This document shows, one piece after another, positions 13,540 to 42,307 of a stretch of DNA of 52,715 nt. The stretch covers positions 1,046,363 through 1,099,077 of the forward strand of contig FN649738.1 in the NCBI GenBank assembly GCA_000310025.1. The letters are read 5' to 3'. Within the stretch, counting starts at the first letter, position 1, and each line of letters begins with the position of its first letter. The translations under genes were made by a program, and so were the position numbers. Source of the stretch: Ectocarpus siliculosus. Its lineage: Eukaryota; Sar; Phaeophyceae; Ectocarpales; Ectocarpaceae. The notes below the pieces were generated by a model. The model did not search any database. It was not told the DNA's origin and saw only the letters and a program-made list of their open reading frames with translations.

Positions 13540-14415
13540 AATCGCTTTTATTGCGTGAGGTTCGACCCGTTTTTTGCCTCAAACCGAGTCCATTGTTCGA
13601 AATCTGTAAGTTCTTCTTTCGCGCATAGCATAAACAAACGGGATTCTCGTTCATATTCTTTCACCAACCATTTCCTCCTCGGAGATCCTTGCCCAATCAT
13701 TTTCCCCTCCAACCATGAGATACCAACCATCAACTCTTCCCGCCCGAAAACAACCATGGCAACTGGGCATAACTCTGTCAGGACGGCATTAATTCTCCGG
13801 ACGGAATTTCCGCCCTGTACGAAACATCACTTTTGTGTCAGTACGCCCCCTAGGACATACCGGTTGCAAAGTTTGAGAGCAAACAAACGTGGCCTTTCGT
13901 GCCCGGGTTTCAATTGATTTATCGCGCGAAAGAGGGGATGGGTCTCAACCCCTGGAAAGGCTTTGGTCGCGCTGAAATCGCCATTTTCGAGTGAGTCTCG
14001 GGTGGGAGGTCACGAATCTGTCATAACATCCCAGTTCGACTATCTTGTTGTTTTGTTATTTCTCTCACATTAGCTCTATGGTCCACTAAAATGGGGAGCC
14101 CGTGGTCGCAAAACCCGGCACATACGACGCCGCGGGGGAACAAACCAAGAACATACAAACCACTCGGAGAAAGAAAACAAATGATAGAAAGAGAAGAACA
14201 GCTACCTCACCGACCGGTCGGGAAAAGGAGCCCTAGGAAACCGATCACAACAAAAACAAAACAAAAATAAAGGCAAAAATAAAAAGGAAAAAGGAGCGCT
14301 TCCCACACCCGCCTAAAACAATCAAAGGGTGTCGTCCCAGCATCAGGCACTACGCACCAGGGCATGGGAGAAATGGAGGCAACAGAACAAAGAGGCGGCA
14401 TCTATGTGTCGTTGA
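13540..14415. other. Intergenic, no supported gene
   Basis: Short ORFs on both strands, none with recognisable domains. From 14240 to 14300 the sequence is A-rich. Confidence 0.35.
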
Positions 14416-14419
14416 CTTC

Positions 14420-14650
<231 letters not shown>

Positions 14651-14651
14651 G

Positions 14652-14804
14652 CTGTCTTCACATTAAAAACCGTTCCGATCTTTCTCTACCCAGTACCTTC
14701 GGTACTGATCCAACACTCGACGCGGTCGATTCCCGTGGTCACGGGTTAACTATCCTAAAAAGGTACACTCAAATAAACTGGCCCCGAGGGGTCCGCAAGT
14801 CAAT
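14652..14804 (+). repeat. Dispersed repeat family R, longest copy
   Basis: It begins next to the (TTG)n tract with GTCTTCACATTAAAAACCG, passes through CAGTACCTTC and CGCGGTCGATTCCCGTGG, and ends with GGGTCCGCAAGTCAA. Other copies are at 14420-14516, 14826-14866 plus 21118-21170 (split), 21525-21612, 33600-33795 and 46417-46515. There is no coding potential. It is possibly a SINE. Confidence 0.7.
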
Positions 14805-14866
14805 AGAAACCAACGACAGAGTCGTAGACTAGTACGGACAGAAGAAGGTACTGGGCAGAGAGAACG

Positions 14867-15081
14867 CTGAAGATTGCAGAGACAGAGGCGTTGAAATCTG
14901 AGTTTTATGAGGAGCGGAAGATGAAATCTCTGTTGGCCAATCAGAGAGCAGCAGCATTGAGTCAGCGTGAAAGTGTCTGAAACCTGACTAGAAGGGTAGA
15001 CTTGGGGGCACTTGTTGGTCTGCCCCAAGGAAGCACGAGGGAGGCTGCTGCAGCCAAGAGGTATTTCGGAGGAGATCTATT
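14867..15081 (+). repeat. DIRS split direct repeat A1
   Basis: This is the left terminal repeat, 215 bp, starting CTGAAGATTGCAGAGACAG and ending GGAGGAGATCTATT. It matches A2 at 19933-20147 with about five substitutions. It is the left boundary of the element: the bases before it belong to family R. Confidence 0.93.
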
Positions 15082-15083
15082 AG

Positions 15084-16246
15084 TTGGGGACGGGAGGGGG
15101 TGCGTCTCTCCCGCGGCCGTCCCAGGTCGTGGCGGGCGCGGTGGCGGCGGCTGCGAGCGCTGCCGCCGGGGGCGTGGATTCACCAGCAAATGTCGTGGCT
15201 TCAACAACCACGCCATCCTCCGCAGAGGTGGGGGCTGCAAGGAGCGGTGGGCTTCAGACTCAGGGTCACGATCGGGCCTCGGCTGCCGGCGGTGCCAGCC
15301 CGCCGGCACCCCGGCGTGCTGATGACCCCGTCCATGCACACCTCATGTCGCGTTTGCCCATCTGTCGGTGGATGCGGCGGGGGCGGTAGAGCCCAGCGAG
15401 GGCACCCCGCTCGAGTCTGAGAATGCGGGGAAAATCGCTCGGTTGGAACAAGGTCAGACGAACATGGTGGCGCAGCTTACCGAGATTGCTGGGTTGCTGA
15501 AGAACTTCCGGCCGGAGTCGGGGCGGACTGGGAGTGGTGGGCCCGGGGAGTCGGGAGGCCTCGGTCTGGTGCCGGTGCCGTCGCCGTGGGGCGGAGGCGC
15601 GGGTGGGGGGGCGAATGCGCCCTCGAGGTCCAACGCCAAAGAGGAGGCGAGGAGGGAGGCCACTATTTGGCAAGCCAAACATAATCAGACACTGTGGGTA
15701 CTTCGGGGGCAGCCGGGGCCGGAGCCCGGACCACAGAAGGAGGACGGACCTGCAAGGTTTGATGGGCGATATCGTGCACGTCACAGGCGACGTCCTCGCT
15801 CAGATGCGTGCGTTTTCGTCTTTCGACGTCAAGAGCTTCCGGCCCGTGGGGGTCGCACGCACGGGGTTAACCTCTTCCGGTTGGTCCTGAGTGAGGGGGG
15901 ATCCCTCCCCGGGGCAGGAGGGTCGCGGGGAGGGAACGGCAAGCGTAAGGCGGGCCAGCTGGATCGGGGTGATTCCTCGTCACGGAAGCGCGCCTCGCGG
16001 GAGTGTTTCCAATTCCGCGACTCTGGCACGTGCACCTTCGGCGATAAATGTAGATTCGAGCACGTCAAGCGCCGCGACGCGTCAAGTACCGGAAGTGGAG
16101 GCGGTGGGGGCGGGAGTCGTGGTGGGGGGGGGCGCTCGTCGGCGGGTGGTCAGGGGGGCGGTGTCGCCCGTGGAGGAGGACAGGCTGACGGTGGCGACGG
16201 TGGCGGCTCGTCGGCGGCCTTGGTGGTGCGGGGTGGCAGCAACTAG
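15084..16246 (+). CDS. DIRS gag-like protein with CCCH zinc finger (frameshifted)
   Basis: The coding signal runs in successive frames. An Ala/Ser-rich N-terminus (ASLPRPSQVVAG) reads to about 15360. The frame then changes, with AGKIARLEQGQTNM and a short predicted coiled coil (VAQLTEIAGLLKNF). From 15745 to 15890 a third stretch (MGDIVHVTGDVLAQM) is in the first frame again. The last part returns to the frame that ends at 16246 and carries a basic region (KRKAGQ) and CFQFRDSGTCTFGDKCRFEH, a C-x8-C-x5-C-x3-H finger, then a Gly-rich tail. It would bind element RNA in a particle. Gag normally carries CCHC knuckles, so a CCCH finger is notable. The frame changes mean this copy is broken or the assembly has indels. 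Confidence 0.65.
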
Positions 16247-16282
16247 GGGTGCGGGCTCCGCCAGCTGGCGGGGCCAACTTCT

Positions 16283-18606
16283 GTGTCGGTTCCAGCTGAG
16301 AGGCCGCAACAGCAGCCAGGTCATAGGGAGATGGCGTCCCGGGACTTGGCTGGCGTGGGGATCCGAGGCGAGCGCTGTGAGGGCTTGCCCGGAGTGGCTT
16401 CCGACTTGGAACCAGGTACGAGGCAAAGTTTTGAACAGGTTTCCCCGTGCGAGGTTGACGATTGGCGTGTGGCTGTGTCTGCGTTGGCTGAGTGTGAGGC
16501 TGCAGAACGGTACGTCTATCTTAACCGTGTGGCGCATGTGGGTTCGAACTTGCTTCGACGGTGTGGGGGACGCGTGGAAAGGTTCGTCGACGCTGTTGGA
16601 CAGGCGTTCTTTCTGCCCCATGTCGATGTGGTGCGTGTCAAGGCACATTTTGGGTATGTGAAAAAATTTCCCCGAGTTGGTCAACTTCTGAGATCGTTGT
16701 CTCCGGGTGCGCCGGTTGACGTGTGCTCAGGTGGGAACCTTGGCGCTGAAGTGGCGTATGGCAACCATCCTAGCGCGTTACTGCACCGCGATCGGATCAC
16801 AGACAAAGTTGTATCGGACGTGATATTGGGGCGTGCGCTGATTTCGATGTTGAGTCCATCCGAGAAATCTTAGGAGTCCGAGTGTCGCCGTTGGGCGTCA
16901 TCGACGAACCGAAGTTTAGAATTATACACGATCTCACATTCACCTCTGGCGTGCCAACTCGTACGAGCGTAAATCACGATACGGACTTCGATCAAGCACC
17001 AGAATGCCTGTTGGGTCATGTATTGAGTGACATTCTGAAGCGGGTGCTGTATTTGCGACAAGTACATGGGGTGTCGTTGGAAATTCTGATCTGCCGCATT
17101 GACGTGAAAGAAGCCTTCCGACAAATCCCGGTGGATCCGTCTCGGGCGTCGGTTTTTGGGTACACGCTAGGAGGTCACGCAATTGTTGACCTACGGTGTC
17201 AATTTGGATGGCGGTCGAGCCCAGGGTTTTGGTCCTTGTTCTCGTCCGCCTTGGAACACTCACTCACACACACACTACATTCCAGGAAGCGTCCGTCTCT
17301 CCCGCCGGTGCTGCGGCTGTGCAGCATGTTCAAGTAGTGTCCCCACCAGACGAAATTGCAGCGGTGCCGTTGCCTGTTGACTGCCAGACTATTGTGGGTG
17401 ACGGGGCGTTCGCTGGTTGTCCGTTTTTCGTGCGATACTACGTTGACGATGGCGTGTTGATTGAAGGGAGATTTTTCGCTGATGGTCGCCGATGTTTGCG
17501 CGCGGTGCGTTCTCTCGCTACGGATCACTTTCGTCTGTTGGGAGAAAGAGGCCCAGCCGACCCGCCGTTGTTGTCGCGAGGCAAGATAACCGATTTCGCA
17601 ACTCGCTTGGATGTGTTGGGTTGGACATTGGACACTCAGCAACTCACGACTACTATGACTGACACGAAACAGCAGAAACTGGGACGCATTTTGGCTGCGT
17701 GGCCCGCGACGCGGAGAGTCGCTACAGCTCGTCAAGTAGCCGAGTTGACAGGGTTTCTCATACATGTTTCGTTCGTGTTGCGGCCAGGAAAGTTTTTTGT
17801 GGGGCGCCGTTTGTCCGCGGTAGGGATGCCTGCTTCGTCTGCATTCGCGTCCCAAGTGCCGAACCCAACCAGACGTGTAGTGCTGGGTCCCTTATTCCAC
17901 GATGACCTCGAACTTTGGCGGTGGTTCCACGGGCGTGGTCTCTCGTGGCGCGGCGGAAGTTTATGCGCACCCATGTACAACATTTTGGATCGCCCACCCA
18001 AACTATCCGTGTTCACCGATGCGTCTAAGCAAGCAATTGGAGGGTATTGTTTGCAAACGGGCCCCTACTTTCGATATGACCTGTCGGTGGAAGAGCGGGC
18101 TCGCTTTGTGGGGTCGAGTAAATCGGTCCAAGGGTTCAATGATGTCAGCATTAAATGTGCTCGAACTCCTTGGCATGGTCATGGGGGCGTGGGTGTTGGT
18201 ATTGGGCCAAAGTCACCAGCCTATGGAGGCGGGTGATTGTGTGCGACTACGAGGGGACAACGAAGCAGCGACAGGGTGGATTGAGCGTTGTCGGGGGGGC
18301 ATTGAGCCTCGATCGGGGGCGCTGGTGCGCTTACTGGGGGCGCTTGAGGTAGCCAGCGGGTGGCATTTCCACGCGACCCATGTTCCTGGCATACTCAACT
18401 CGCTTGCTGATGGTATCTCACGTTGGAATACTAACGATGTTCATGGTAATCTGTGCTCCGCCTCCCCTCATGTGGCGTGGCAGATCGTGGAGTTGGGCCC
18501 GACGGTGCGCGAGCTGTGCTCCACCGTGCTGGCTTCGAGCTCGTCAGGCACGCACTTGCGCCGTCGTCTGAACGAACTTACCTGGGATTTTTTGGAGCGT
18601 GGGTGA
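16283..18606 (+). CDS. DIRS reverse transcriptase and RNase H (frameshifted)
   Basis: The N-terminal part reads open at 16283-16840 (CEAAERYVYLNRVAHVG; GGNLGAEVAYGNHPS). It then moves to the frame with SPLGVIDEPKFRIIHDLTF (from about 16885) and ICRIDVKEAFRQIPVD, the first catalytic-Asp region. Near 17265 the frame changes again, leading to FFVRYYVDDGVLI with the YVDD box at about 17439-17450, then LDVLGWTLDT. The RNase H-like part starts near KLSVFTDASKQAIGGY (about 18000). It shifts frame near 18125 and continues with RLRGDNEAATGWIERC and HVPGILNSLADGISRW, ending at 18606. These motifs and their order are typical of DIRS polymerases. At least three frame changes prevent a single product in this copy. 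Confidence 0.8.
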
Positions 18607-19664
18607 AGTTTCGAGAGGACTTCGTGGGGAGACCGGCCTTCATGGTGCCGTCGTCTACATTGCGGGCCATCGTTTCGCAATTGTTGGATAACGTTGCGTA
18701 CGCGTTCACGGTGTTGGGTTTGAGGCAGACGACGATAGCTGGTCACATGTCTGCTGTTAAAATGTTTCACCGCTTGTCGTATGCGATGGAAGTTGACACA
18801 TGCCATTCCTTGGTTAAGCAGGCGCTCAAAGGGGTAGCACGAGGGCATGCGGGTGTAGGTGTGCGACAACGGGTGCGACGTCCGATTTCGTGGTCGATGC
18901 TGAAGGAAGGGGGGCGTCTGGTGCCACAGTGGGGCACGGGTGGGCGCGTGTTGTTTCTGGCGTTGAGTGCGTCATTTGTTTTCTTGATGCGGGCATGTGA
19001 AATGTTCGCTGGGTCCTCGTTGGTCATGGATTCTTGTCATGGGTTGCGTCGGGGGGACGTGGCGTTTTTTTTGGGTTCTCACCAGTTGCCTCCGGCGCGG
19101 AGGGGAGAGGCCGACAGAGTCGAGGTACGGTTTCGGTCGTCGAAAGGCGACCAGTTTCGGAAGGGTGCCGTGTGTACGCGGGCGAGGCCGGGGCCTCCCC
19201 AGTCTGTGGAGTGTGGGGGGGGTGCAGTCGATGTGATGATTGAACTCCTGTCATGCTATCCCTTTCTCCCATCGTCTGCCCCGTTGGTCGCGTTCGGCGC
19301 CGGGGAGGGGCGATGGTCCGTGTGGACTCGTCGTCAGGCGACGGAAGCGCTGCGGCAAGTCGTGTCGTTGGCGGGTCTGCCGCCGTCAGAGTACGCGTTG
19401 CATTCCCTTCGGATTGGGGGCGCCACGTACTTGGCAGCGGGGGGAGCGTCGCCAGAAGTTCTGAGACGAGAGGGGAGATGGGCTGGGGAAACGGGGTATC
19501 GGCCGTACGTAAGGAACCATGGAAAGGATGAAGAATGGGTTTCTAGTACCTTGGCGTTGGAGGGTGATACAGTGAGGCAACCGGGACAGGGTACAGAGTG
19601 GGGAGACGTAGTCCCAGAGGCTGGTGAGGGCGAGCTGTATAAGGAGGGGGTGGAGTGTGTGTGA
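18453..19664 (+). CDS. Tyrosine recombinase of DIRS element
   Basis: One uninterrupted frame overlaps the end of the polymerase region. An N-terminal core-binding domain runs through SSERTYLGFFGAWVKF and TTIAGHMSAVKMFHRL. The catalytic domain has the first Arg in FLMRACEMFAG, the HxxR box in YALHSLRIGGATYLAAGG, a Trp in REGRWAGETGY and a likely nucleophile Tyr in YRPYVR. The enzyme would integrate a circular DNA copy, using the split repeats, without target duplication. The start codon is unclear: sequence before about residue 20 overlaps the RNase H end, and initiation may be by internal or frameshifted translation. It is the best preserved ORF of the element. A Lys/Arg-poor acidic C-terminal tail of about 45 residues follows the Tyr. 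Confidence 0.9.
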   Translation: MLRLPSCGVADRGVGPDGARAVLHRAGFELVRHALAPSSERTYLGFFGAWVKFREDFVGRPAFMVPSSTLRAIVSQLLDNVAYAFTVLGLRQTTIAGHMSAVKMFHRLSYAMEVDTCHSLVKQALKGVARGHAGVGVRQRVRRPISWSMLKEGGRLVPQWGTGGRVLFLALSASFVFLMRACEMFAGSSLVMDSCHGLRRGDVAFFLGSHQLPPARRGEADRVEVRFRSSKGDQFRKGAVCTRARPGPPQSVECGGGAVDVMIELLSCYPFLPSSAPLVAFGAGEGRWSVWTRRQATEALRQVVSLAGLPPSEYALHSLRIGGATYLAAGGASPEVLRREGRWAGETGYRPYVRNHGKDEEWVSSTLALEGDTVRQPGQGTEWGDVVPEAGEGELYKEGVECV

Positions 19665-19758
19665 TGAGGGTATTGGTCGCTGTAATTGTGGGAACAACGA
19701 GAAGGGGGGAGAGAGAGTGCAGAGGATCAGTATGGTCAACCAGTCCGCGGTTAGGTTG

Positions 19759-19932
19759 GGGGCAGGCATGACTTTGAGAGTATGCCTGATGGTGCGATGA
19801 CTGGTTTATACTGATGATGGTGTTGTGGACGGGGATAGGTTGAGATCCCCGAGTTCCACTCTTCTCTCCCCCCCCTGTTCAAGCGTGGGGGGGTACGACC
19901 AATTAATGCAATTTCGAAAGCAACGAATAAAG
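19759..19932 (+). repeat. DIRS split direct repeat B1
   Basis: This 174-bp repeat starts GGGGCAGGCATGACTTTG and ends CAACGAATAAAG. It is identical to B2 at 20944-21117, directly follows the recombinase ORF and directly abuts A2. Confidence 0.93.
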
Positions 19933-20147
19933 CAGAAGATTGCATAGACAGAGGCGTTCAAATCTGAGTTTTATGAGGAGCGGAAGATGAAATCTCTGTT
20001 GGCCAATCAGAGAGCAGCAGCATTGAGTCAGCGTGAAAGTGCCTGGAACCTGACTAGAAGGGTAGACTTGGGGGCACTTGTTGGTCTGCCCCAAGGAAGC
20101 ACGAGGGAGGCTGCTGCAGCCAAGAGGTATTTCGGAGGAGATCTATT
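19933..20147 (+). repeat. DIRS split direct repeat A2
   Basis: This 215-bp partner of A1 begins CAGAAGATTGCATAGACAG. With B1 it forms the internal B1A2 junction, which would template circle formation from a linear transcript. Confidence 0.93.
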
Positions 20148-20943
20148 TCTTTCCCACCCCCCCACCATTTTTCTTTTTTTTTTGCTTTTGGGGGGTCGGG
20201 TGTCAGTGGTAGGGCGAGGAAGGGTCACCAGTAGTGGTGAACGAGGAATGTGTGGTCGTTTGCACGATACTGCTGAGGGGGCGAGGGTTCTTGTGGGTAG
20301 ATGGTCCTTGCCCGGGTGTGTCTGTCGCGTTAGAGATGTTGCGGTACTCTCAGTGTAGGTGAGAGCGCGTCAATGGCTGTGCCACTAAAGGAAGCGAGTG
20401 CACAGTGAATGGGTGAGAGGTTATGGTCGACAGGATCGGCTGTTGTAGCTGTGGGCCGGCGGTCGGGGGGCGGGTGCGAACCCAACGTGGGGGTTCGTGA
20501 GGTACCGCGTGGGTGCGACCGTTGATGAGCTTGACGAGGTAGCGCGACTAGACATTGGCATGCAGTGGGGTACTTCATGGTACTTCACAATCGATGTGGT
20601 ATATGTGCGGTATATTGAGGTTGGTATATCGGAACATGCATGCAATCTGGAGAGAAGAGAGTGTGTGAAGCACACGACATCCCGGGGGCAGTGGGCGCGC
20701 AGTTGAACGTTGATGCTACCAACTGACGCTGAGTGAGAGGGGGATGAGTGTTGTGCTAGGAGTATTTCCAGTCCATATTTCCTGTACTTAAATGTACAAT
20801 ATGTACAGGGCGTTGCGGTGCCGGGCAATTTTTTTGTTTATGTGTGCATTTCCTGTCCGTGGAGATGCAGGTTGCGCGGCATTATCTATGCATATGTATG
20901 CTTTGGGTATATGTGCTGTATGTATGGATATCTGAGTCTGTGC
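20148..20943. other. Spacer between A2 and B2 of the DIRS element
   Basis: About 800 bp of unique sequence separates A2 from the right end. It holds a T-rich run at 20163-20185 and short ORFs (for example 20497-20706) without a recognised domain. Some split-repeat elements carry a further ORF here; none is convincing in this copy. Confidence 0.6.
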
Positions 20944-21117
20944 GGGGCAGGCATGACTTTGAGAGTATGCCTGATGGTGCGATGACTGGTTTATACTGAT
21001 GATGGTGTTGTGGACGGGGATAGGTTGAGATCCCCGAGTTCCACTCTTCTCTCCCCCCCCTGTTCAAGCGTGGGGGGGTACGACCAATTAATGCAATTTC
21101 GAAAGCAACGAATAAAG
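20944..21117 (+). repeat. DIRS split direct repeat B2 (right end)
   Basis: Identical over 174 bp to B1. The sequence after it (GAACGGTTTTT then GTGAAGACAACAAC) is family R, so the element ends at AATAAAG. Confidence 0.93.
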
Positions 21118-21175
21118 GAACGGTTTTTCTGTGAAGACAACAACACCACCACCAACACCACCAACAACAACAACA
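21118..21175 (-). repeat. Family R, right part split by the DIRS insertion
   Basis: GAACGGTTTTTCTGTGAAG followed by an AAC-rich tract continues the family R sequence broken at 14866 (GGTACTGGGCAGAGAGAACG). Joining the two flanks recreates the same order seen uninterrupted at 21525-21612. Confidence 0.75.
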
Positions 21176-21524
21176 TCCCAGTTTGAACTACTACGTTACA
21201 TGCAGCTGCCCTACAGGCCAATTGTCGAAAGTTCTCAGAATTCCTGAGATTATTTTTAAGCAACCAACCTATCTCGGCCACTATTGGTCAGATCAACGTT
21301 CTCGTAGTGGTTCCGCCTAGACCGACCAAGACGAAATGATTCCCGATGGGGGCGAAAAAGAAAACGTACTGGTACTGCCTCGAAAATTGATATTTCGGCG
21401 AAGATGAACTAATGTTCTTTGTGATTTTGTTATGCGTACCTCGTGTTTGGCCGTTTTTTTAGCGCGACCTGTGAAATCGTTTTATTGGTTGTTTTTTCCA
21501 CCGAGCACTGAGTCAAGTGTTCGA

Positions 21525-21612
21525 CTAGTACGGACAGAAGAAGGTACTGAGCAGAGAGAACGGAACGGTTTTTAATGTGAAGACAACCACAACAACAACA
21601 ACAACAACAACT
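21525..21612 (-). repeat. Family R, uninterrupted copy (empty-site paralogue)
   Basis: It reads ACTAGTACGGACAGAAGAAG, GGTACTGAGCAGAGAGAACG, GAACGGTTTTTAATGTGAAG and then an AAC tract. It spans the exact point where the DIRS element is inserted in the neighbouring copy. Confidence 0.8.
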
Positions 21613-21654
21613 GAGCGCTTCGTCTCTACGGAACCTGCCACAACTATCCTTGTA

Positions 21655-21860
21655 TATGCCCCGGAGGAAGCCCGAACCAGAAGGCGTGGCAGGAACATGA
21701 GAGTGCCAGGTGGAGGGTAGAAGGAGGTTCGTTTGCACACATTACATGCATGTTACGCGTTGGGCAGCACCTCACCACGCCACGTTCTTTCTGTGGTGAT
21801 GTCGGTTGAAGGTTTTCAAACACGACAGATGTGGTGTGGGGTGCGTGCCCGCCCACAACA
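21655..21860 (+). pseudogene. Decayed coding fragment, copy 1
   Basis: This stretch and 22672-22870 are imperfect direct repeats: each has CC(A/G)GAGGA(A/G)GCCC, then CGTGGCAG, then GTGGAGGGT, and then GCAGCACCTCA. The second copy reads open for about 38 codons (EEAQKRVAEAQDYEWLVEGG); here the corresponding frame is broken. It is probably a fragment of a repeated gene or transposon ORF. Family unknown. Confidence 0.4.
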
Positions 21861-22671
21861 AAATAATATCTCTCATATTGTACGAGCTACACGTCAGCAA
21901 AAAAGGGAGCACTTGGGTGATTCACAGCAGAGACCCTTCCCCCAAAACCCCCAGCGAGCGAGCCCTTCACCCAGGAATGCTTGCCAATTATTGCCGAACG
22001 CAGTACTCACCGTTTTGTAGTTGGTTGTGGAGCCTGTGATTGATAGGGCAAACTACACAACAGGGTATACCCTGATCGAAAAGCGACTCAGCTTGGCGCA
22101 AGTACACGCATTCAACAACGTGAAATGAACCCAAATGATTGGCCAAGGCCTGCTGCGTAATAAAATGCGCTATTTATTACGGTTTTTGCGAAGATCGAAT
22201 TTCAGTTTGGTCTTGGTCTTTTTCATCCCCACGAGCGCCGAAGACCGATGAATCTTTAGGAATTTGGTCTTTTGCTCCTACGAATTGGCCCCAAAGACCA
22301 CAGAACAGACTGAATTTTATGTTGGTCATTTGGGTCTTTCGAGGAACAGTTTTCCATTGGCCTATACACCCCGAGATACTCCCGTCGTCCTCCCGACACA
22401 CACCGCACCATCCCGTGAACCTGCCTAAACACACACACCTCGGCCATCATAGACGACACCATGGCGAACCAACTACAGTTCCGCCAGACAGTCAGACAGA
22501 CGTCCCTGCACCGCAGATAGATCCGGTGCAATGCATGCTGCCGACATGGTGCACTTGCGTTTTATCTTGCTCACAGCTATTTTTGTAGGAGCATTTTCCC
22601 GGAATTTTCCGCCCCATGAGATAAACCCGTGGTCTTCATTCGTGCTTCGAACGACACATAGTACCCTTCCT

Positions 22672-39279: not shown

Positions 39280-39420
39280 GGGCCTGGTATAGTGCCGGTT
39301 GGGCACCACGTCAGCCCGCAATAGTGCCGGTTCACACACGCACGCACACACACCACCCCACTCCCAAAACACAGACACCGTGCTGCTGCAGTCCAACACA
39401 GCTCTACGCAGAGGCGCACC

Positions 39421-42307
39421 ATGCCGTGTGCGGAAGGTGAACTGTGCCTTCAACAGAACAGAACGCCGAAGGCCCCTCATGGCCACGTCTGCAAGGGAGG
39501 ATGTGGCGGGCGGCTCCATGGCACTTGCGGCAGCGTGGAGGGTGACTTCGAAACATCCCGCATCTGCAGTTCTTGCGTCGCTGCTAAGACTGGCAAGCGC
39601 AAAGCGACCGCAGCTGGGGTTGATGCTGGGGCGGGACCATCTAAACGTCCGACAGAGAAGGGGGGGGGGAAGAAGGCTTCTCGCGCGCGGCTGAGCAACG
39701 CTGACAAGGTTGAGGTCCTCAAGCTGCTGGATGCCAAGATTTCTCATGAGCAGATAGCAGATCGCTTTAAGTGCTCGGAACGGCTGGTCCGCAAGGTGAA
39801 AGCTGAACGGAAGGAAGTGGAGGCTAAGGCAGCTGCAGGCGACGGAAGCCAGAAAACCGCACGCAGAGGAGACTTTCCGGAGGTAGGTAGAGTACACGAC
39901 ATGCCTGGCAATTTCCTCTCGAACGTTGTTTTTCCCCGCCATTTTTCAAAAATGCCCTCATGTCGCCGATTTCTACTGCTGTACCTTTTTTTTTTTTGCC
40001 CTTCCTTGTTTCTTTGCCTTTCCCTTTTCGTCTTTTCGTATGTATCATATGGTGTTTTTTTTTTTCATGTCACCTCCTTTTTTTCTTTCTCTTTGCCTTT
40101 TTTTGTTATGTCTTTGGCCTTTGAGGTCCTCGATGTCCACACTCATAGACCTTCCGATTATTTGTCCTTGAAAATGAAAGAGCACTGTTGTGTACATATT
40201 CGCACCCGCTTTTTTTTCAAAACAAACAAGCAGATGTAAGCAGATGTAAGCAGATGTAGCCTGTACGAGCGTCTCCTCGCAACTTTCCCTTTCCCCTCCC
40301 GCAATTTTTTCTTTCCGGGTGTAGTGGCACTTAAAAAACATCAGCTTTGTTTACGGTGTACCGCGGCGTCGTCCCTCGTATCTGCGCCGCGCAGTGTAGA
40401 TGCTTACGTTTGAAACTAATCGTTGGTCGTTTGAACCTCTGCATTGTATACTCTTTTTCGCCGGCAGGTGGATGAGATAGTTATTGATCTGCTCGATAAA
40501 GCCCGGAAGGCCAAGATGCCCGTCACACGGGACGTACTTCGAAGCTTCGGCCGTTCCACCGTGGCAACCCTGCTCGCTGAGCCCGCTACTTCTGCAGCAG
40601 TGAGGGCGAGGGTCAAGGACTTCAGGGCCGGTGAAAAGTGGGCCAAGAACTTCGTGAAGCGCAACAAGGTGCTGAGTGCGAGACTTCATGGCGAGGCTGG
40701 TAGTGTCGACCCAGCGGCCATCGAGAAGGGCATGGAGGAAGTCAGGAGCCTTTGCGCGAAGTACCCAGCTAGGTTCATCTTCAACGTGGACGAGACAGGC
40801 ATCCAGTGGAAGCTTATGCCCAGGCGCACGTATCTTTCCTCCTCGGAGGACCGCAAGAAGGCGCGGGGCTCCAAGAGCATGTACTTCAAGGATCGGATGT
40901 CTGCCATCATGTGCAGCAACGCCGACGGCACTGCAAAGGTGGACATGGCCATCATCGGGAGGTCGAAGGTGCCTCGCTGCTTCACGGACGCGCCTTCACC
41001 TCTGAAGTACTTCTCGCAGGCCAACGCGTGGTCTGACTCCGCGACGTTCCTCAAGTGGTGGCTTGAAGTCTTCCTCCCGTTCATTCGGCGCTTCACTCAC
41101 GAAAAGGTGCTGCTCCTGATGGACGGCTGCTCCTCTCACGGCGATCTCGTTGATGATCGTGGGCAAGTTACCATCAAGTTCTATCCTCCGAACTGCACCA
41201 GCCTGCACCAGCCCATGGACATGGGGATCATCGCGAAGACGAAGGTCCTCTACAGGAAGGAGCTGCTCGACGTGAAGGCATCCACAATGTTGGTCGCTGA
41301 GACCCTTCGCGCCCAGGCCAAAGCCAGTAAGATGAAGGCCGGGACGATGGGGCTGGCGCAGGGGCACCAACCTCACCTACGGGACGCCGCTGAACTTCTT
41401 CAGAAAGCATGGGGCAGCGTCACTCCCCAGGACATCGCCAGGTCAGGTTTGAACATGTTCTGTTGCTATGTAGAGGCTTCAACTCGGGCGGTGGTGCTAG
41501 CACAATAGCTTTGGTGGCACGTTTCGTGGCAGAGGTGGTACGGATTTTTTTTGAGAAAGTTTCCTGCAGGGGCATCCCTCGTTTGCAATAAAAATTTCCT
41601 CTTTTTTTGCATGCGGATGAGTCAACTTCTGCCGCTGGGTCCGTCTAATATCTGCGTTGCACTCAAAAACGGATGCGGTTCGTATTCTCGGCAACCCCGC
41701 GACCAGGTGCTTTGTCAAAGCCGACACGCTTCCGCAGGAGATGGCGGCTGAGCTCACCAACCTCCACGGGAAAACCCAGGCCCGCATCCACGAGCCTGCG
41801 TTGAGGTCCCTCACGAAGAGTGTCCACTCGTTGAGCACGAGCGTGCACGACGCGCAGCAGCAGGGGTCTCGCATCGAAGACGAGGACCTGAGTGAAATGT
41901 GCGCAGAACTCAACGTCTCACCCGGAGAGCCTGCCCCGGAGGAGGCGGTGGACTTAGTTCAGGCGTGGGCTACCATCGAGGATGACGATGACGTGGTGGA
42001 GGCTTTTCGACAGGATGCAGCGGACGAAATGACGGCACAGCTGGCGGGAACGCGCCTATCTACCTGCCGCGAGGAGGAATCCGAAGATGAGGCGGACAGT
42101 GATCATGAGGACACGGGGGGCGGCCGCCGCGCCCCACCGGCTTACGGTGAACTGTCTTCTCACTTCGGCGTCCTGGAGGTGGCCGCGCGGGAGAGTGGAA
42201 ACGGGGACGCTGCGTTCCACCTATCGAAAGCGAAGATGGCGATGATCGCGGCGCATGCCGCTAAGGGCGTGCGCCAGACAGACATGAGAGAGTTTGTTGA
42301 TGAGTGA
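39421..42307 (+). CDS. pogo/Tigger-type transposase, three exons
   Basis: Exons 39421-39882, 40468-41441 and 41707-42307 join in frame (phase 0, then phase 2) with GT..AG introns of 585 and 265 bp, giving 678 codons without a stop. An N-terminal Cys-rich segment (HVCKGGCGGRLHGTCG, ICSSC) may bind zinc. A psq-type helix-turn-helix follows (VEVLKLLDAKISHEQIADRF), then a CENP-B/Tc5-type DNA-binding domain (KWAKNFVKRNKVLSARL). The DDE_1 catalytic core has Asp about 262 (FNVDETGIQW), Asp about 373 (LLMDGCSSH) and Asp about 405 (HQPMDMGII), the last two 31 residues apart: the DDD triad of the pogo group. The C-terminal exon is acidic (EDDDDVVEAF, EEESEDEADSDHED). The second splice was chosen because it restores IARCFVKA. 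All key residues are present. It would act in the nucleus on the element's own ends. Confidence 0.9.

Follow-up and report, generated by a model that had tools for sequence, protein, structure and literature searches.

The question raised by this locus is what kind of mobile element lies at positions 14866-21116 of the window (the whole stretch of DNA that was analysed, 52,715 nucleotides of Ectocarpus siliculosus contig FN649738.1), where exactly it ends, and how it entered its present site. It is very probably a Ngaro-type tyrosine-recombinase retrotransposon, inserted without target duplication into a dispersed repeat of about 100 bp via a circle closed at a B2-GCA-A1 joint, A and B being two pairs of direct repeats. 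As read from its sequence, the element may be written [GCA]A1 - gag - RT/RNase H - recombinase - B1-[GCA]-A2 - spacer - B2.

A direct-repeat search of the window gave the order A1, ORFs, B1 A2, B2, with the A pair at 14863-15081 and 19929-20147 (219 nt, 97%) and the B pair at 19759-19932 and 20944-21117 (174/174). The length and likeness of these repeats are far beyond chance. Pairwise alignment found 5/215 differences between A1 and A2, in agreement with the about five sites given in the initial annotation, and 0/173 between B1 and B2. The parts, all on the plus strand and, for A and B, defined by repeat search and alignment, are as follows:

14866..14868, plus strand: triplet GCT before A1, element-side; GCA in most copies
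14869..15081, plus strand: A1, left terminal half of the split direct repeat
19759..19931, plus strand: B1, with AATAAA at its end
19932..19934, plus strand: GCA linking B1 to A2, identical to the junction of a circle B2-GCA-A1
19935..20147, plus strand: A2, internal A copy
20148..20943, plus strand: A2-B2 spacer, 796 nt, longest open stretch 138 aa
20944..21116, plus strand: B2, right terminal repeat, with AATAAA at its end

The ends of the element can be set almost to the base. A starts with GAAGATTGCA in most copies, and AATAAA is the B terminus at 8/8 B ends read (window, L050, L051, L052, L055), while older, more divergent copies (L053 and L054) have ACAAA instead. The B1A2 joint is exactly 3 nt long in 4/4 cases, GCA in the window, L051 and L053, and CCA in L050. 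These boundaries refine the initial annotation at three points: B1 and A2, described as directly abutting, are separated by the GCA at 19932-19934, between the B1 end at 19931 and the A2 start at 19935; A1 proper begins only at 14869, behind the GCT at 14866-14868; and the identity of B1 and B2, given as 174/174, holds for B itself, the 174th base lying outside it as the G of GCA at B1 and the G of target GGA at B2. On the host side, GCA stands before A at 12 of the 17 left junctions starting at A position 1 (from 31 match rows, excluding 4 internal joints and 10 rows not from position 1), and the other five read GCT (window, L073), CCA (L052), AAT (L059) and GGA (L063). Six different triplets follow the six right ends counted (window, L050, L051, L052, L054, L055; the count omits the L059 miniature and a spurious match in the window), and none of them is GCA. 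Because of the constant 3-nt joint, the GCA on the left and the variable triplets on the right, the element is best read as GCA-A1...B2. The G of the window GCT may be element side or equally target sequence.

The same organization recurs in the genome (189 Mb, 492 contigs, GC 53%), where A has 30 and B 11 matches, the window's own included. At two loci, L050 (contig C178) and L051 (C24), A1, B1, A2 and B2 are all present, with the order and the terminal bases of the window element, so that both the split-direct-repeat layout and the ends proposed at the outset are borne out by complete copies elsewhere. The A2-B2 spacers of the window and L050 differ in 27/797 alignment columns. Within-copy differences are 2/216 for A and 3/175 for B in L050 (two indel columns), and 3/216 and 5/176 in L051 (three indel columns in B). 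Taking the majority base in the A alignment as reference, A2 has four of the five changes seen in the window and A1 has one, the T of GCT. Partial forms are also found: in L052 (C186) and L055 (C25) a single B forms the end, host DNA comes directly after it, and A2 and B2 are missing; L053 retains the B1A2 joint, and L054 retains part of A2...B2. In the miniature L059 (C169, about 617-882), a B-like end, GGAATAAA, stands no more than tens of bases behind A. Judging from their structures, the partial forms L052, L053, L054, L055 and L059 are consistent with recombination between repeats; for the Ngaro elements of Cafeteria, a passage of PMC8547959 describes isolated AB repeats.

The target can be recognized as well. 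The window element sits inside a dispersed repeat roughly 100 bp long, with the left flank ...gagagaAC and the right flank GGAACGG..., and an uninterrupted copy of the entered repeat lies nearby:

21512..21611, plus strand: uninterrupted copy of the dispersed repeat (gagagaACGGAACGGttttt), from repeat search and alignment

Among 29 further copies of this repeat, 16 in readable orientation were aligned (13 in reverse were excluded); all 16 cross the insertion site gap-free, 11 with exactly ACGGAACGG. For the other copies, matches to the joined flanks were judged by positions and identities, not letters. The L051 junction is crossed by 17/20 matches elsewhere in the genome, and in two of these (179 and 139 nt, 98%) the query and the match are equally long to the left and to the right; the L050 junction is crossed by 40/40 among the matches listed, with small length differences, and the L052 junction by 1/40 among the matches listed, for a query that lacked one C. 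Uninterrupted sites of this kind are C24:1134982-1135160, C18:97841-97974 and C492:523851-524028. No target duplication is seen, and since joined flanks occur uninterrupted elsewhere in the genome, insertion without target duplication is indicated. Layout, ends, triplet, flanks continuous elsewhere and sister copies are directly observed. The dispersed repeat, SINE-like in look and with an (AAC)n tail, occurs in the window at 14627-14685 (inverted), at 14820-14865 with 21117-21175, and at 21512-21611; the genome search gave 1802 candidates and scored 40 of them. An inverted repeat, 14420-14519 with 14711-14809 (51 nt at 88%, 56 nt at 71%), flanks a long GTT tract immediately left of the element.

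We infer the RNA, circle and strand-exchange steps as follows. The element RNA would be copied into cDNA by the RT, and the internal B1-GCA-A2 would serve as the template for joining both ends of the cDNA as B2-GCA-A1. At this joint the circle would recombine with the target by the element's recombinase, after which GCA would remain on the left and target sequence would directly follow AATAAA on the right. The internal joint, already invoked in the initial annotation in support of the circle model, does mirror the circle joint, and B2-GCA-A1 fits the GCA on the left, the variable triplets on the right and the lack of target duplication. In the model given for DIRS1-like elements in a section of PMC3266345, recombination occurs with an identical 3-bp target; as the right-hand triplets here are not GCA, identity of all three target bases is seemingly not required. 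With target sequences found uninterrupted elsewhere, the element cleanly illustrates the short joint between B2 and A1 predicted by the circle model.

The coding region lies between A1 and B1:

15082..15083, plus strand: site of a 215-nt loss; the sister segment includes the likely gag start
15326..16246, plus strand: gag-like frame remnant, with a CCCH zinc finger at 16004-16063
16247..18236, plus strand: RT with the beginning of RNase H; frames 16247-16873, 16774-17337 and 17190-18236 overlap
17881..18606, plus strand: remainder of RNase H in another frame, with the motif HATHVPGILNSLADGISRW at 18370-18426
18450..19664, plus strand: tyrosine recombinase frame, 404 aa, from catalytic-residue motif, gene order and repeat anatomy

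The assignments of RT and recombinase rest mainly on motifs, the profile tests being weak. In the RT region we take DVKEAF (17092-17133) to be motif A-like, and we likewise assign YVDD (17439-17450) and TDAS (18009-18032); HATHVPGILNSLADGISRW is presumably an RNase H motif. With Pfam, the RT region matches RVT_1 at E 0.0044 and the gag-like frame zf-CCCH_DUS3L at E 7.2e-6, each below its cut-off, and no RNase H profile matches the window element. The RT has 149 matches in the genome. For the recombinase, R181, K232, H318-x-x-R321, W344 and Y353 are assumed by motif to be the catalytic residues; the same residues are present in two pieces at L006, 36% and 49% identical. These pieces (L006 1-592, on C24 upstream of L051) belong to the recombinase of a different element adjoining L051.

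Recombinase profiles gave little. No Pfam integrase and no NCBIfam model matches the frame, and a PHROG integrase does so at E 0.26; run over the genome with E up to 1, the Pfam integrase model picks out 23 places, and neither the window element nor any of the 117 genome matches of the recombinase is among them. Profile comparison with E. coli recombinases was not significant for the joint profile (E 0.12), and single profiles gave 0.13 (XerD), 0.061 (XerC), 0.2 (FimB) and 0.14 (FimE, cut at the locus end), beside 0.26-0.6 for four unrelated control proteins and 0.19-0.77 for five shuffles. An AlphaFold model from an 11-row alignment has a mean pLDDT of 31, and a PDB sequence search returned weak finger-like and chance matches only (best E 0.012). 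No relative was found in the viral contigs scanned, and Rfam has 0 matches over 13800-22200. With weak or negative profile results and a low-confidence fold, the recombinase call rests on motifs, gene order and repeat anatomy. Dozens of the recombinase matches form a group at about 46% identity to the query, in which equal scores and open frames are frequent (for example C3:4090486-4091430); this group suggests a recent burst of a related family.

The window copy is decayed. Compared with L050, 215 nt behind A1 are missing and 2 nt stand in their place; this segment is present in L050, L051, L052 and L058, and partly in L055. A second gag segment of about 365 nt, near 15863, is lost from the window and present in L050, L051, L052 and L055. 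In L051, gag and RT are read as a single open frame (1090 aa), the alignment of the window to it being spread over several frames, and the coding parts of L050, L051, L052 and L055 each have frame breaks or stops somewhere. From the two gag losses and the broken pol frame, the window copy is either dead or moved by the proteins of other copies, in which case it could have moved before or after its losses. The description as a textbook element accordingly suits the repeat layout and not the coding part; likewise gag-like, RT/RNase H and recombinase stretches do lie between A1 and B1 as annotated, with gag doubly deleted and pol in several frames.

By anatomy, the window element appears to be Ngaro-type rather than PAT or DIRS1, since no methyltransferase is found and the internal repeats lie behind the recombinase, whose frame ends at 19664 with B1 starting at 19759. 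The Dam model has 0 matches in the whole genome, and no methyltransferase was found in the ORFs searched with Pfam. Passages of PMC4157794 assign a methyltransferase to DIRS1 and PAT and place the Ngaro internal repeats behind the recombinase, and warn that element anatomy is homoplasious; in a part of PMC3783388, Ngaro repeats are given as A-pol-B-A-B and methyltransferase is detected with the Dam model. Shared with Ngaro elements, as portrayed in parts of three papers, are the layout A1-[ORFs]-B1A2B2 of about 6-7 kb and, by the motif-based assignments, the order gag, RT-RNase H, recombinase without a methyltransferase (PMC8547959, PMC3783388, PMC12477816). Unlike Ngaro elements, ours has a CCCH-type gag finger, a pairing that no paper names among the 12 listed of 103 literature matches, and a 796-nt A2-B2 spacer, in a defective copy. 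A 3-bp circular junction and the lack of target duplication are common to DIRS1-like elements, which according to a section of PMC3266345 have inverted terminal repeats and a methyltransferase, whereas the repeats here are direct; the inverted pairs within 14866-21116 are two short ones (20 and 22 nt), and neither is terminal. In an excerpt of PMC12477816, 15 Ngaro and 5 PAT-like families are listed for Ectocarpus sp. 7. The present element adds a well-bounded Ngaro-type family, possibly one of those already counted; no general view is changed, the element being ordinary apart from its clear layout and ends.

The initial annotation spoke of a PAT/Ngaro arrangement, of which the split-direct-repeat, tyrosine-recombinase kind stands; by anatomy, with no methyltransferase found, Ngaro is favoured over PAT. 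It is unlikely that the element is a PAT-like (PAT/TOC) one that lost its methyltransferase and whose anatomy now misleads. PAT-like elements (PAT, TOC, kangaroo) do share split direct repeats and a recombinase with it, and the CCCH finger of the window copy recalls the gag zinc finger of Pat1; moreover, a Pat1-related lineage in C. briggsae lost its methyltransferase (all in passages of PMC4157794), and Ectocarpus holds the PAT-like families just mentioned. PAT-like elements nevertheless carry a methyltransferase by the same account, whereas no Dam-type match exists anywhere in this genome, the 137 nt from the RNase H motif to the recombinase start leave no space for such a domain, and the internal repeats sit behind the recombinase, as in Ngaro.

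The Ngaro-type reading also has to be set against two others that concern the integrity of the locus. Both missing gag segments are cleanly absent from the window and present in sister copies, as if they were introns and the window copy came from spliced RNA; but the second is open gag coding sequence in L051, neither is bordered by GT...AG, and the first leaves 2 extra nt and removes the likely gag start, so that splicing is contradicted by the sequences and this origin is extremely improbable. The region is rich in other repeats, and an unrelated composite of nested repeats might mimic a split direct repeat; against such a composite stand L050 and L051 with the same parts, order and ends in different flanks, which leaves it practically no probability at all. 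A is probably not a protein-coding exon: A2 of the window is open, but most other aligned A copies read TGA.

Among the 28 loci fetched by A and B matches (L050-L077), A occurs in 26 and B in 7, so that A-bearing loci outnumber B-bearing ones; of the 26, four (L074-L077) match in part and over a short length. L057 (C27), L056 (C155), L061 (C4) and L065 (C20) carry A alone and keep its left end exactly. Young A-only copies start precisely at the element's left terminus, GCA|GAAG; their other boundary coincides with the 3′ end of A or falls close to it in L056 and L057, and lies about 60 nt short of it in L061. In L057 the 15-bp sequence GTTCTGCTGCGAAAT stands as a perfect direct repeat to the left and right of GCA-A, as a LINE-type insertion would leave; other A-only copies have no flanking direct repeat of at least 8 bp within 45 nt. 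It is a doubtful suggestion, and a tentative one, that A has also been inserted alone. If so, a discrete RNA or cDNA would begin exactly at the left terminus, which would mark a transcript start or a strong-stop product integrable by other machinery.

Elsewhere in the window, a DDE_1 transposase ORF lies at 40435-41508 on the plus strand (Pfam E 6e-29), with a helix-turn-helix frame (39325-40239) upstream of it. A chlorophyll-binding protein has 87 matches in the genome, which marks it as that of a photosynthetic eukaryote, with tandem series of identical-scoring genes on C92, C488 and C232.
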